The notes below the pieces were generated by a model, which had not been told where the DNA came from, searched no databases, and was given only the letters and a program-made list of their open reading frames with translations. The position numbers and the translations under genes are program-made. 64,000 nt of DNA from Clostridium sp. 'deep sea' (lineage in GTDB: Bacteria; Bacillota; UBA994; PWPR01), in the NCBI RefSeq assembly GCF_014931565.1, contig NZ_CP063353.1, positions 1,426,001-1,490,000 on the forward strand, read 5' to 3'. Position 1 is the first letter of the stretch; each line of letters starts with the position of its first letter. Shown piece by piece: positions 12,272-37,815 of this stretch.

Positions 12272-13582
12272 TTAATATTTTACCTTAAATACAGTTTGCT
12301 CTTTAACATCAGCTGTTAAAGCATCTAGGGCTACCCCTACTCTATGATAGCGTAATTTCCATTGCTCTTCTTTACTGGTAGATGGATCACCTAATGGATA
12401 AGGTATAGAAATAGTTGGTACCATTTTGTTGGCGCCTACAGTTTTTGCAACTGGAATAAGGTTAGCCATTTGCACAACTGGAATACCTGCTTTTTCAATC
12501 TCTTTAACAATCGTTGCACCGCAACGTGTACAGGTTCCTCAAGTAGAAGATAGAACTACTGCGTCCACACCTTCATTTACAAAGTATTCAACCATTTCTT
12601 GACCCATACGAGCTGCCTCAGCCTGGGTTGTGCCAGTACCTACAGTAGAATAAAAATATTCATGTAGTTTGCCAATTTTGCCTTCTTTTTCATAGGCTCT
12701 TAAAGCATCTATAGGTACACATACATTTGGATTAGCATCTGCTGCAGCTGGGTCATAACCAGCGTGAATAGTTTTAAATACTCCACCCTCTAAACGATCC
12801 ATATCTTTTATGCTATAACGTCCCCATCTTGTTGCAGATGCAGATTGAATACGATCTGGATTAGCTACTGGCACAATACCACCAGAAGTAGCAAAAGCAA
12901 TAGTAGCTTTACTTAAATCTTTAATAGGTGCAGCAATTTCTACTTTATCTAGCGCAGGAATTGGCAATTCACTGACAAAATCTTCGCCTCTTAGCTTTTT
13001 AATTAACATACTAACAACGCGCTCAGAAGCAGGAACTTTATCCTCTCTCCAAACTTGGTGACGAATACCACGACCAAAGTATCCTTCGGTATCGGCATCA
13101 AATAACTCTTCGTTATTAAACATTTTGTTAGCGTAATCAGCAATAACCTTAATATTTTTACGCATTGCTGCAGCACTTCTGCCACCCTTAAAAATAATCA
13201 TGTCTTTTCTAAACATTTCTACGCCAGGGTTTTCTTCATGCATAGAAGTTAATACTGGTACATTAAATTTCTCTTGAACAGCTTTACAGATAACACCACA
13301 GGCATTACCATAACGTCCAGCCTGAAAAGCAGGACCAGCTAAAAATATATCAAATTCCTTATCAGCTAAAAAACCTAAAATTTGTTCTACTGCATCAGCT
13401 TCATTAGAACCCATATAGTTATCACCGCAAATTACGGTATGTGTTACCTCTGCATTGAGTTGTTTATTATACTCCATAGCAGGGCCAACTAAACCTTCTC
13501 TAATTACAGGTGCAAAATCAGCTTTATCTTCTCCACCAATTTGACCAAAGAATTGATTTAAATAAACAATTGCTTTTTTCAC
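12272..13582 (-). CDS. grdH: Betaine/glycine/sarcosine reductase component B gamma subunit, selenoprotein
   Basis: Read through the in-frame UGA at 12539-12541, the product is 436 residues, the standard length for GrdB/GrdF/GrdH. Selenocysteine is residue 348 in a U-G-T-C-T-R-C motif, matching the family's UxxCxxC active site. The reading frame continues 88 codons beyond the UGA with conserved GIPVVQMANLIPVAKTVGANKMVPT. Known role: with the pyruvoyl alpha/beta subunit it binds the substrate amine and transfers a carboxymethyl group to the selenol of protein A. The BCCT neighbour favours betaine (GrdH), but GrdB/GrdF cannot be excluded. The start is GTG after AGGGGGG. GrdA, GrdC and GrdD are not in the window. 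Confidence 0.9.
12512..12541 (-). promoter_or_regulatory. Candidate bacterial SECIS hairpin at the UGA codon
   Basis: Directly after the UGA (minus strand) a hairpin CGTTGC-ggt-GCAACG (12512-12526) begins 12 bases downstream, within the distance expected for a bacterial selenocysteine insertion element bound by SelB. The short apical loop contains the G-U pair often seen in such elements. Confidence 0.65.
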
Positions 13583-33930: not shown

Positions 33931-35110
33931 CTAACTAGCTTTAAATATTACATTATTTCTAAGCAAGTGATATATTACTCTAATTAATTTTCTTGCAACA
34001 TGAGATAGAGCAACGAAATAATGCTTACCCTCATTTAGTTTTTTATTGAGATAATCTTTAAACACTGAATCATACATAGCTACTGATCTAGCAGCACTAA
34101 TTAAAGCTGCTCTAAGATAAGTTGAACCTCGCTTAACCATCTTGCCATTACCTTTGAATTTTCCAGATTGCTTAGTTGAAGGATCTAAACCAGCATAGGC
34201 CAAAAGTTTAGAAGGTGAACTAAAGTTATGAATTGAGCCTATCTCAGATAATATGATAGAGCCATACACAATTGAGATCCCTGGTATTGAGAGTATTGGT
34301 GAATCAAGCTCTGTCATCATGACTTTAATTTCCTGCTCGATATTCTTTATTCTTTTCTGACATGCTTGTACTTCTTCTATGCTATATACTAAGTCCAGCT
34401 CATGCGACTTACAAACTACACCAATAGAGTTTTGAGCTAGTTTTTTTATTTTTATAGCTGTATCTTTGGTATATTTCCCATTAGAATTTTTTGTTAATAT
34501 ATTAGTTAACTTAGTGAGGTGTGCTTTTTTTAGAGACTCAGCAGATGGGTATTCCTTTAGTGCTTCATACATTGATTTTTGGTGTATTGAAGGGAAATTT
34601 TGCTTTAGTTCTGGAAAGGTACAGCTGAGGATTCTTGTAATAGATATTTTATGAGAACTGCATATTTTTACCCAACGAGTTCTTATTCTTGTTAGAGATT
34701 TAATCTCGTTTATATGGTATGATATTGGTGTAGGGCTTGTGGTCTTCAGTGTGCAATATTTTGGCAATCATTTTTGCGTCTATCTTATCTGTTTTTGTTT
34801 TGCGAAGGGTCTGAGCTTTTCGATATAGGTTAGTGCTGAGTGGGTTTAGTACTACTAAGTTAAAGCCCTTTTCATACAGGTAGTTACGTATATTATTGCT
34901 ATAATGCCCTGTAGACTCAAGTCCAATTTTTATCTTGCTCTTATTTACCTTTGGTATCTTGGATAATAGTTTTTCAAACCCAGCTTTATTATTGGCTATT
35001 GTAAATACTTCTTCTATTACTTCACCCTCAGAGTTAACAATAAAACAGTCATGTTTTGTACTCGCTACATCAATTCCTACATAGATCATTAATTGACCTT
35101 CTCCTTTCAT
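33931..35110 (-). pseudogene. IS110-family transposase, frameshifted (copy 1)
   Basis: The N-terminal half (MIYVGIDVASTKHDCFIV, RuvC-like DEDD domain with LESTGHYSNNIRNYL and KTDKIDAKMIAKIL) is in one frame and the C-terminal half (SIPGISIVYGSIILSEIG, KLLAYAGLDPSTKQSGKF, RGSTYLRAALISAARS; Transposase_20 domain with the catalytic Ser region) in another. Compared with copy 2, two G are missing near 34728 (ATTGGTG against ATTGGGGTG). Otherwise complete, about 392 residues. Likely inactive unless the frameshift is rescued. Confidence 0.85.
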
Positions 35111-35335
35111 TGATGCTGTTATTCCATCAGCTTTATGTTCTATATCCTTGCTAGAGATAAAACGTCTATGCGTTATCTAACTAATTAATAGTTGTAACAT
35201 AAAGCTGTGGTTATGGTCTTTGTGAAATAGTCTAAGCTATAGAACACAAGTAATAATCCACAGCATCTGTTACTTTGATTATACGCTATATTTCTAATAG
35301 CTTAACCACTCTTTTATTATACAAGAACGCTAAGG
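35111..35335 (-). ncRNA. Candidate IS110 bridge RNA region, copy 1
   Basis: The ~220-base non-coding left end upstream of the transposase is nearly identical in the two copies although it has no open frame. In the IS110 subgroup the bridge RNA that guides target choice is encoded here. Short foldable stretches are seen (for example AGATGCTGTGGATTATT with AATAATCCACAGCATCT nearby in loop-like order). A 9-base match TTAACCACT (35302-35310) is shared with the target flank TTAACC(A/G)CT. Prediction only. Confidence 0.4.
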
Positions 35336-35549
35336 ACACGAAGAGAAGATTGTTTTAATATGGTTTTGCTTTTTAAAATGTGAACTTAATATTGTAAGTA
35401 TATTTTTCGTGATTCTAAGCTTTGAGGTTTAAACATGAGAATTACAGGGTTAAAACATAAGTTTTTTGATTAACCGCTAAGAACGCTAAGAATACGAAGA
35501 TAAAGATTGGTTTATTTTGGGGTTTTTATATTTAAAATGTTGGTTAGTA
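35336..35549. repeat. Host dispersed repeat flanking the IS110 copies
   Basis: No gene. Contains AACGCTAAGGACACGAAGAGAAGATTG directly after copy 1 (in pieces of under 20 bases: AACGCTAAGGACACG, AAGAGAAGATTG) and, at about 35460-35510, an uninterrupted relative GATTAACCGCTAAGAACGC followed by TAAGAATACGAAG. Similar runs lie at 33660-33829, 36400-36536 and 38031-38060. The IS110 copies appear to have inserted into copies of this repeat. Confidence 0.6.
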
Positions 35550-35940
35550 GTTCAACTACTATCTAAAATGATACAGTCTGAGAGAATCACTATACCTCCC
35601 ATTTGTCGCGATAGATTTACCATCTAATATGACACAATACTAAAACAATGCGGCCTCGATCTTTTCCTTACCTAGTGTTCAATTACCATCTAAAATGACA
35701 CAATACTAAAACCTCCTGTTATCGTTGCGCCCGTTATTGCTTGTTCAATTACCATCTAAAATGACACAATACTAAAACAACGATGGCTGCTCAACTGATG
35801 ATGATTCGGTTCAATTACCATCTAAAATGACACAATACTAAAACTAACCACATGCCTTTACCATGCCACCCTAAGTTCAATTACCATCTAAAATGACACA
35901 ATACTAAAACAGAGCGAACCTGCAATTCGAGCGTGTATTC
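35550..35940 (-). CRISPR. Orphan type II CRISPR array (degenerate left end)
   Basis: Repeats of 36 bases in a 66-base register with 30-base spacers: R1 35611-35646, R2 35677-35712, R3 35743-35778, R4 35809-35844, R5 35875-35910. R2-R5 are identical, beginning GTTCAATTACC and ending ACAATACTAAAAC on the plus strand. R1 differs in its left quarter; a badly decayed R0 lies at 35550-35585. In crRNA sense (minus strand) the repeat starts GTTTTAGTATTGTG, the hallmark of type II repeats. The last spacer (35911-35940) is followed in register by the tracrRNA anti-repeat. Decay at the left marks the trailer end, fitting minus-strand transcription. No cas gene is present. Spacers are distinct and not assigned. 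Confidence 0.9.
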
Positions 35941-36054
35941 GTTCAATTACCATCTAAAATGACACAAAGTGTTAAAATAAAGGTTTACTTAATCGCCATT
36001 TTAATGGTCGCCCTATAGAGGGCTAAATCACAAAATTTATTTTGTGATTTTTTT
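35941..36054 (+). ncRNA. tracrRNA fused in register to the CRISPR array
   Basis: Plus strand. Bases 35941-35967 equal the first 27 bases of the array repeat, so they pair perfectly with 27 bases of crRNA repeat. Then AGTGT (35968-35972, bulge), TAAAAT (35973-35978) which pairs with crRNA GUUUUA as in SpCas9 guides, AAAGG, a CCATT-tt-AATGG hairpin (35996-36007), GCCCT-atag-AGGGC (36010-36023), and a terminator AAATCACAAAA/TTTTGTGATTT (36025-36050) with T-run. This is the standard anti-repeat, bulge, lower stem, nexus, hairpin, terminator order. There is no clear own promoter; upstream is array sequence. Confidence 0.8.
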
Positions 36055-36075
36055 ATGTACTTTTTTAGGCAAAAT

Positions 36076-36106
36076 AAAAAATTATGGTTTAATATTACCA
36101 TAATTT
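36076..36106 (-). terminator. Terminator of the 57-residue membrane protein gene
   Basis: AAATTATGGT (36078-36087) pairs with ACCATAATTT (36097-36106). On the minus strand the stem is followed by TTTTTATTTT, so it ends the small gene whose stop is 52 bases before. Confidence 0.7.
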
Positions 36107-36157
36107 TGTATATAACTCACATATAATTAATGTATTTAAGAACTATACTGCTTACTT

Positions 36158-36331
36158 TTAATACCTATCCTTAGTTTTATTAATATAATCCTCCATTATC
36201 ATACCTAAACCACCAATGCTTGTTAAAATTCCACCTACCACTAATGATATTGCTTCACTTGATACTTGCTCTGAAAAAGCTATTATTATTAAGCCTAAAA
36301 CAAAAAAGACTGTATATTTTACGTCATTCAA
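36158..36331 (-). CDS. Small two-helix membrane protein (57 residues)
   Basis: Start TTG at 36331, seven bases after GGGGGAG. Two predicted membrane helices: VFFVLGLIIIAFSEQ and AISLVVGGILTSIGGLGMIM, with a charged tail EDYINKTKDRY. No family recognised; size and plan resemble small holin- or toxin-like membrane proteins but that is only shape. It is the only intact gene between the two IS110 copies. Confidence 0.6.
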   Translation of the reverse strand: MNDVKYTVFFVLGLIIIAFSEQVSSEAISLVVGGILTSIGGLGMIMEDYINKTKDRY

Positions 36332-36536
36332 TATTTTACTCCCCCGTTTTTTAATTTAGTTAATTTTACCACAGGTAAATGTAAATATATATGGTGGAAT
36401 TTAAGGCATTAAGCCTAAGTTTTCTGATTAACCACAACGAATACCAAAAAAAGATTGGTTATATAGCTCTTGACTTTGAGGTTTAAACATGAAACATACA
36501 GATTTAAAACACCAGTTTTTTTGATTGACCACTAAG
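36332..36536. repeat. Host dispersed repeat before IS110 copy 2
   Basis: No gene. Carries TAAGTTTTCTGATTAACCAC, AAAAAGATTGGTTAT, TTGAGGTTTAAACATGA and ATTGACCACTAAG, in the same order as the segment around 35400-35510. Copy 2 begins directly after CCACTAAG. Confidence 0.6.
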
Positions 36537-36636: not shown

Positions 36637-37815
36637 CTAACTAGCTTTAAACATTACATTATTTCTAAGTAAGTGATATATTACTCTAATTAATTTTCTT
36701 GCAACATGAGATAGAGCAACGAAATAATGCTTACCCTCATTTAGTTTTTTATTGAGATAATCTTTAAACACTGAATCATACATAGCTACTGATCTAGCAG
36801 CACTAATTAAAGCTGCTCTAAGATAAGTTGAACCTCGCTTAACCATCTTGCCATTACCTTTGAATTTTCCAGATTGCTTAGTTGAAGGATCTAAACCAGC
36901 ATAGGCCAAAAGTTTAGAAGGTGAACTAAAGTTATGAATTGAGCCTATCTCAGATAATATGATAGAGCCATACACAATTGAGATCCCTGGTATTGAGAGT
37001 ATTGGTGAATCAAGCCCTGTCATCATGCCTTTAATTTCTTGCTCGATATTCTTGATTCTTTTCTGACATGCTTGTACTTCTTCTATGCTATATACTAAGT
37101 CCATCTCATGCGACTTACAAACTACACCAATAGAGTTTTGAGCTAGTTTTTATTTTTATAGCTGTATCTTTTGTATATTTCCCATTAGAATTTTTGGTTA
37201 ATATATTGGTTAACTTAGTGAGGTGTGCGTTTTTTAGAGACTCAGCAGATGGGTATTCCTTTAGTCTTCATACATTGATTTTTGATGTATTGAAGGGAAA
37301 TTTTGCTTTAGTTCTGGAAAGGTACAGCTTAGGATTCTTGTAATAGATATTTTATGAGAACTGCATATTTTTACCCAGCGAGTTCTTATTCTTGTTAGAG
37401 ATTTAATCTCGTTTATATGGTATGATATTGGGGTGTAGGGCTTGTGGTCTTCAGTGTGCAATATTTTGGCAATCATTTTTGCGTCTATCTTATCTGTTTT
37501 TGTTTTGCGAAGGGTCTGAGCTTTTCGATATAGGTTAGTGCTGAGTGGGTTTAGTACTACTAAGTTAAAGCCCTTTTCATACAGGTAGTTACGTATATTA
37601 TTGCTATAATGCCCTGTAGACTCAAGTCCAATTTTTATCTTGCTCTTATTTACCTTTGGTATCTTGGATAATAGTTTTTCAAACCCAGCTTTATTATTGG
37701 CTATTGTAAATACTTCTTCTATTACTTCACCCTCAGAGTTAACAATAAAACAGTCATGTTTTGTACTCGCTACATCAATTCCTACATAGATCATTAATTG
37801 ACCTTCTCCTTTCAT
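36637..37815 (-). pseudogene. IS110-family transposase, frameshifted (copy 2)
   Basis: The N-terminal frame (37261-37815, 184 residues) includes the DEDD domain and continues through the point where copy 1 is broken, then stops after a missing G near 37265 (TTTAGTCTTC against TTTAGTGCTTC in copy 1). A further two T are missing near 37147 (T5 against T7), which restores the frame, so the Transposase_20 part 36637-37104 is intact (155 residues). The ~40-residue stretch between is out of frame. Likely inactive. Copies 1 and 2 are broken at different sites. Confidence 0.85.

Follow-up and report, generated by a model that had tools for sequence, protein, structure and literature searches.

A CRISPR array joined in register to a tracrRNA, the likely scar of a type II-A cas operon deletion

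An array that runs into a tracrRNA

We analyzed a 64-kb window (64,000 nucleotides) of the Clostridium sp. 'deep sea' chromosome. Positions 35611-35940 hold a short CRISPR array whose crRNAs run leftward (Table 1). Four of its 36-nt repeats, R2 to R5, are identical (GTTTTAGTATTGTGTCATTTTAGATGGTAATTGAAC in the crRNA sense) and are separated by 30-nt spacers at a period of 66 nt, bearing out the repeat identity and the 66-base register proposed in an earlier sequence-only reading of this locus. The terminal repeat of a CRISPR array is usually degenerate, and the left end of this array is formed by such a repeat, R1. A second degenerate half-repeat, R0, lies 61 nt further left, outside the 66-nt register, and its start sets the left limit of the feature at about 35549. 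Read in the crRNA sense, R0 has lost all but the 3′ part of the repeat and in this resembles an anti-repeat. A whole-genome search found the array repeat nowhere else in the genome.

At its right end the array continues into a tracrRNA. The next unit (35941-35967) stands in exact 66-nt register and shares all of its 27 nt with the repeat, after which the sequence changes to AAGTGTTAAAATAAAGG and proceeds rightward, opposite to the crRNAs, through two hairpins (CCAT/ATGG and GCCCT/AGGGC) and then a long hairpin and a T-run ending at 36054. Both the sequence and its folding agree with the earlier description of this unit as a repeat that turns into a rightward tracrRNA. Folding of the crRNA:tracrRNA pair had been proposed as a check: the joined molecules gave −64.8 kcal/mol (z −11.8), with a complete upper stem, a bulge and a lower stem rich in U and A, and the tail by itself gave −22.3 kcal/mol (z −4.1). 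The modeled pair has the fold expected for a type II dual RNA.

The match of this unit to the repeat is 27/27, the run of 27 identical bases reaches the exact end of the repeat, and a perfect repeat (36/36) follows 30 nt on. We compared the same region, repeat positions 10-36, in the anti-repeats of 14 intact type II-A loci. In these, 15-26 of 27 positions match the locus's own repeat (the comparison was ungapped, and small indels in L096 and L100 lead to underestimated identity there), identity at the repeat end never runs beyond 1 nt, and a repeat 30 nt further is missing. The complete identity and the perfect repeat 30 nt on point to a hybrid, whose array-facing side would come from an array repeat and whose tail-facing side would come from a tracrRNA. 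This combination of an array-type 3′ half and a tracrRNA-type 5′ half, in array register, is the one looked for in a scar.

Two IS110-family copies in the same orientation flank the locus (window 33931-35110 and 36637-37815). They are about 98% alike over the compared stretch, the reading frame is broken in both, and both are embedded in copies of a REP-like dispersed repeat (AACGCTAAG..ACACGAAGA). An IS110-mediated deletion was considered and rejected, as the IS110 ends, which fall in this dispersed repeat, are separated by a few hundred bases from the array and the tracrRNA, and the joint would be left unexplained. Just beyond the tracrRNA terminator, a stretch that may encode a small membrane protein (about 60 aa) was noted by eye on the minus strand (36160-36345). 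Elsewhere in the window, a SECIS_4 element (12501-12538) stands directly after the ORF of glycine/sarcosine/betaine reductase selenoprotein B (12539-13582, minus strand), and because of this position the ORF as listed probably ends at a selenocysteine UGA.

Table 1. Features of the array and the adjoining tracrRNA (window positions)
Feature	Position	Strand	Basis
R0, degenerate half-repeat, leader-distal side	35549..35575	-	89% over 27 nt
R1, degenerate terminal (oldest) CRISPR repeat	35611..35646	-	sequence
Spacer S1	35647..35676	-	29/30 to resident prophage, AGG on PAM side
R2, CRISPR repeat, crRNA leftward, GTTTTAGTATTGTGTCATTTTAGATGGTAATTGAAC	35677..35712	-	sequence, repeat comparison
Spacer S2	35713..35742	-	target searches: none found
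R3, CRISPR repeat	35743..35778	-	sequence
Spacer S3	35779..35808	-	target searches: none found
R4, CRISPR repeat	35809..35844	-	sequence
Spacer S4	35845..35874	-	viral contigs, 26/30 and 25/30; first in Tad2-like gene
R5, CRISPR repeat closest to the fusion	35875..35910	-	sequence
Spacer S5, last before the fusion	35911..35940	-	target searches: none found
Putative hybrid unit: tracrRNA anti-repeat upper stem, in register, equal to array repeat	35941..35967	+	repeat comparison
Predicted tracrRNA: bulge and lower-stem side, nexus, two hairpins, intrinsic terminator	35968..36054	+	folding, profile, alignment

Type II-A kinship and the order of intact loci

In a comparison with 24 repeats from Cas9 loci, the best matches to the array repeat were those of L088 and L050 (28/36). 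Against the best II-A repeats identity was 27-28/36, against II-C repeats it was 12-16/36, and 2,000 shuffled repeats reached at most 22/36; on this comparison the array repeat is assigned to type II-A. For the tail, we aligned 14 II-A tracrRNAs from other genomes, excluding the locus's own, into a profile that is sequence-only, since RNAalifold on these tracrRNAs gave no consensus pair and the alignment is non-structural. Against the 64-kb window this profile had a single, nearly full-length match at 35962-36054 (E 4e-4, E-values of this search being rough). The best pairwise alignment of the tail was to L088, with 60 nt spanning the nexus and both hairpins, and the alignment score summed over the 14 II-A tracrRNAs was 5.2 sd above dinucleotide shuffles. 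Because of the profile match, the L088 alignment and the summed score, we classify the tail at 35968-36054 as a predicted II-A tracrRNA; the earlier reading had named a tail without tracrRNA homology as a finding against deletion, and the opposite was found. As the repeat is unique in the genome and the II-A profile matches the window only at the tail, the array and its joint are not a product of chance.

To place this arrangement among intact systems, arrays and anti-repeats were located by script in 39 stretches around Cas9 genes, with cas9 positions that the script missed taken from Cas9 model searches. Both elements were found in 28 loci, including four (L048, L089, L091 and L094) whose anti-repeats are based on short matches of 14-16 nt. 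In these loci the anti-repeat is close to the 5′ end of cas9 and the cas genes separate it from the array, by about 4.4-6.2 kb where measured. The anti-repeat is a direct repeat of the array in 26 of the 28 and inverted in L058 and L059, so the direct-repeat geometry assumed by the sequence-only reading holds for most of them. In none of the 28 does the anti-repeat adjoin the leader end of the array in register, and relatives with an anti-repeat directly after the array, which had been named as evidence against a deletion, were therefore not encountered. II-C loci also have direct repeats, but judging from the direction in which their arrays and tracrRNAs run, the same deletion would there remove the tracrRNA tail; only the II-A order would predict the fused tail seen here. 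When the anti-repeat and an array repeat of L088 were exchanged in silico, 6,158 bases were removed, including the cas9, cas1, cas2 and csn2 genes within the stretch, and the product had the same anatomy as the present locus and lined up with it through the joint.

The tracrRNA stands at the array's right end, where a leader is expected. The TTGAG leader end present in L049, L050 and L088 is absent here, and so is the inverted repeat core of several II-A leaders. In those leaders the inverted core copy lies about 27-52 nt upstream of the first repeat, with which it could pair (L049 12859-12875, L050 5545-5561, L096 5297-5318 and L097 6591-6608). The 14 intact II-A tracrRNAs have a TTGAC-like and TATAAT-like pair close before the anti-repeat, as read by eye. 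At the present locus, no sigma-70-like promoter was detected on the plus strand of 35300-36258 by a scan that yields no more sites than shuffles do and is weak alone. This supports the earlier claim that the tracrRNA has no promoter of its own.

Missing cas genes, spacer targets and a resident prophage

A single contig of 3.83 Mb makes up the genome, whose completeness is estimated at 97.6%. A Cas9 family search found no Cas9 above cut-off in it, as a deletion predicts, and a genome-wide search found no Cas1; the genome-wide absence covers these two Cas proteins. A real array thus stands in a genome without Cas9 or Cas1, which makes it an orphan (cas-less) type II array. The same Cas9 model gave matches above cut-off in 12 of 398 phylum genomes and in 30 of 391 genomes in the class of G081, so the search works; none was found among the 15 class genomes, genus sister included. 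The model's only match in the own genome is a sub-threshold, 60-position HNH stretch at 3608428-3608589. The 368-aa protein that contains it (L001 1258-2364) has an HNH_4 stretch and no other Pfam domain, and was rejected as a Cas9 candidate; it adjoins a 299-aa ORF without Pfam match.

The genus sister (G001) likewise has no match to the repeat or the tail. Searches with repeat and tail in the own genus, order and class (15 genomes) and in 398 phylum genomes, sampled at one genome per species, gave only chance matches outside the locus. L018 showed a 19-nt match near a masked stretch. Across 84,980 genomes the repeat-spacer-repeat pattern had six matches, all of them single and in unrelated organisms, and IMG/VR contained no match. 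The comparison with relatives that the sequence-only reading had suggested was therefore borne out in part: the geometry of distant intact loci was as proposed, but no undeleted copy of this locus was found among the 15 class and 398 phylum genomes.

Spacer S1, the oldest full spacer, beside R1, matches the genome's own chromosome at 2834881-2834910 (E 7e-7). The single mismatch lies 6 nt from the PAM side, and the AGG flank would suit an NGG PAM, if this is the PAM that the system used. The target is within a VapE-like helicase-primase gene of an apparently complete prophage of about 36.6 kb (own genome 2822129-2858711; L121 16130 to L122 13812), which has integrase, terminase, portal and capsid genes and, read by eye, tail and amidase genes. 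This prophage is bounded at both ends by a 14-nt att core (ATGTGTATGATGTC) and splits a type II/IV secretion (CpaF-like) ATPase gene, which excision might restore. Given the match of 29/30 and the AGG flank, an active Cas9 system would probably attack its own chromosome at this site.

Spacer S4 matches two viral contigs with 20 identical seed-side bases, and the first of these matches falls inside a Tad2-like anti-defence gene. The Tad2-like (Thoeris anti-defence) phage gene at L118 42-551 is the likely kind of S4 target. No target was found for S2, S3 or S5, and the phage and plasmid collections contained no spacer match. In view of the S1 and S4 matches, the spacers look like genuine anti-phage memory.

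Origin of the joint and comparison with known systems

Taken together, the anatomy, the absence of Cas9 and Cas1, the II-A kinship of repeat and tail, the geometry of relatives and the self-match lead us to accept that the locus is very probably the scar of a type II-A CRISPR-Cas9 locus. The ancestor would have had the order tracrRNA, cas9-cas1-cas2-csn2, leader, array, with the anti-repeat a direct repeat of the array. We infer that the anti-repeat and an array repeat underwent a short-homology exchange at a point somewhere within 35941-35967; such recombination had been proposed by the sequence-only reading, and anatomy, losses and relatives' geometry agree with it. The exchange would have taken out the cas operon together with the leader and the tracrRNA promoter, a stretch of about 6 kb in the closest relative, and the tracrRNA tail would thereby have come to adjoin the older, remaining part of the array. 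This remnant, an array and a tracrRNA without Cas9 and probably without promoters of their own, would be inert unless Cas9 and transcription came from elsewhere. Because S1 matches a prophage that is now resident, the loss may have been tolerated or perhaps selected; the prophage may have entered before the loss, selecting it, or after it.

Some observations count against this reading. The closest relative is only 28/36 identical in its repeat, and the ancestral state is reconstructed from distant loci because the genus sister has no Cas9 and no repeat or tail match. Neither the repeats nor the tail have decayed, as would equally be expected of a locus still in use. In addition, the route of the exchange is uncertain, since ordinary homologous recombination across 6 kb would usually need more than the 20-27 nt or so of homology available here.

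The joint might instead reflect how an unsampled type II lineage is naturally arranged, the cas genes having been lost separately. The position of the tracrRNA does differ among type II groups (PMC3936727), that of Campylobacter jejuni is found immediately past the array (PMC4607530), and the closest system that we found is still distant. We nevertheless consider this unlikely: the joint is seen in none of the intact loci having both elements, the Campylobacter tracrRNA has its own −10 box, like those ending each repeat (PMC4607530), and no promoter was found before the anti-repeat here. Furthermore, a natural anti-repeat is not expected to match at 27/27 to the exact repeat end with a perfect adjoining spacer unit. 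Less probable still is that the locus works, its array and tracrRNA serving a Cas9 from an unassembled plasmid or other element. R2-R5 and the tail are undamaged, and orphan type II arrays exist and can be reactivated, those of Enterococcus faecalis CRISPR2 working when given cas9 and tracrRNA (PMC5491264). Against this stand a single-contig genome without Cas9 or Cas1, the lack of a leader and of a recognisable promoter, and a spacer S1 that would target the resident prophage, even if the one mismatch could permit escape.

An array in register with the anti-repeat would equally be produced if spacer-acquisition proteins had inserted spacers at the tracrRNA anti-repeat, a reading to which we give hardly any credence. 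Spacer acquisition copies the repeat at the insertion site, and the 5′ half of the anti-repeat would be expected in every new unit; R2-R5 have the canonical GTTTTAGTATTGTG there, the TTGAG leader end of L049, L050 and L088 is missing, and the degenerate R1 at the far end is an old terminal repeat. An assembly artefact, in which reads were joined across identical 27-nt stretches, appears equally far-fetched: the joint does lie within repeated sequence, but the genome forms a single contig, and such an artefact would require that the entire assembly lack the cas operon.

If the deletion scar is accepted, its significance may extend beyond this genome. Most bacteria have no Cas9 though it can move between genomes, and the manner of its loss is usually invisible; this locus would offer a specific, readable scar of that loss. 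A tentative and rather doubtful extension is that repeat/anti-repeat exchange is a general loss route of II-A systems, favoured by self-targeted prophages, and that the remnant may penalise re-acquisition of Cas9. Were this true, the direct-repeat geometry of most loci would enable the exchange, the fused scar would be diagnostic, and a re-acquired Cas9 would be penalised because S1 would then cut the resident prophage. The direct repeats that the exchange needs occur in the 26 intact loci noted above, and the tracrRNA tail would be kept only with the II-A transcription order. Such a route lends itself to searches of genome collections and to laboratory measurement, and a coexisting self-targeted prophage is a plausible selective cause for loss.

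In the literature searched, subscription tracrRNA surveys excepted, we found no description of a repeat/anti-repeat fusion or deletion. The II-A loci L088 (G668), L050 (G319) and L049 (G081) of other Bacillota-type genomes resemble the present locus in their 36-nt repeats (27-28/36), 30-nt spacers and tracrRNA nexus and hairpins, and their anti-repeat is a direct repeat of the array. Unlike them, the present locus has no cas9, cas1, leader or tracrRNA promoter, and its anti-repeat is joined to the array. According to the excerpted text of PMC5491264, E. faecalis CRISPR2 is also a cas-less type II array with a degenerate terminal repeat, but it has CRISPR1 repeats and works with the CRISPR1 cas9 and tracrRNA; a fused tracrRNA is not described in that excerpt. 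The second CRISPR locus of Spiroplasma syrphidicola likewise combines an array and a predicted tracrRNA without cas genes, and is noted in the excerpted text of PMC6882279 without geometry, details or report of a fusion. In C. jejuni II-C (PMC3656092, PMC4607530) the tracrRNA adjoins the array as it does here, but it lies beyond the array with its own −10 box, cas9-cas1-cas2 are intact, and each repeat closes with a promoter motif that the present repeats lack. A C. jejuni repeat sequence had no match in plasmids. Orphan type II arrays are known, and the present locus is one that is fused to its tracrRNA.
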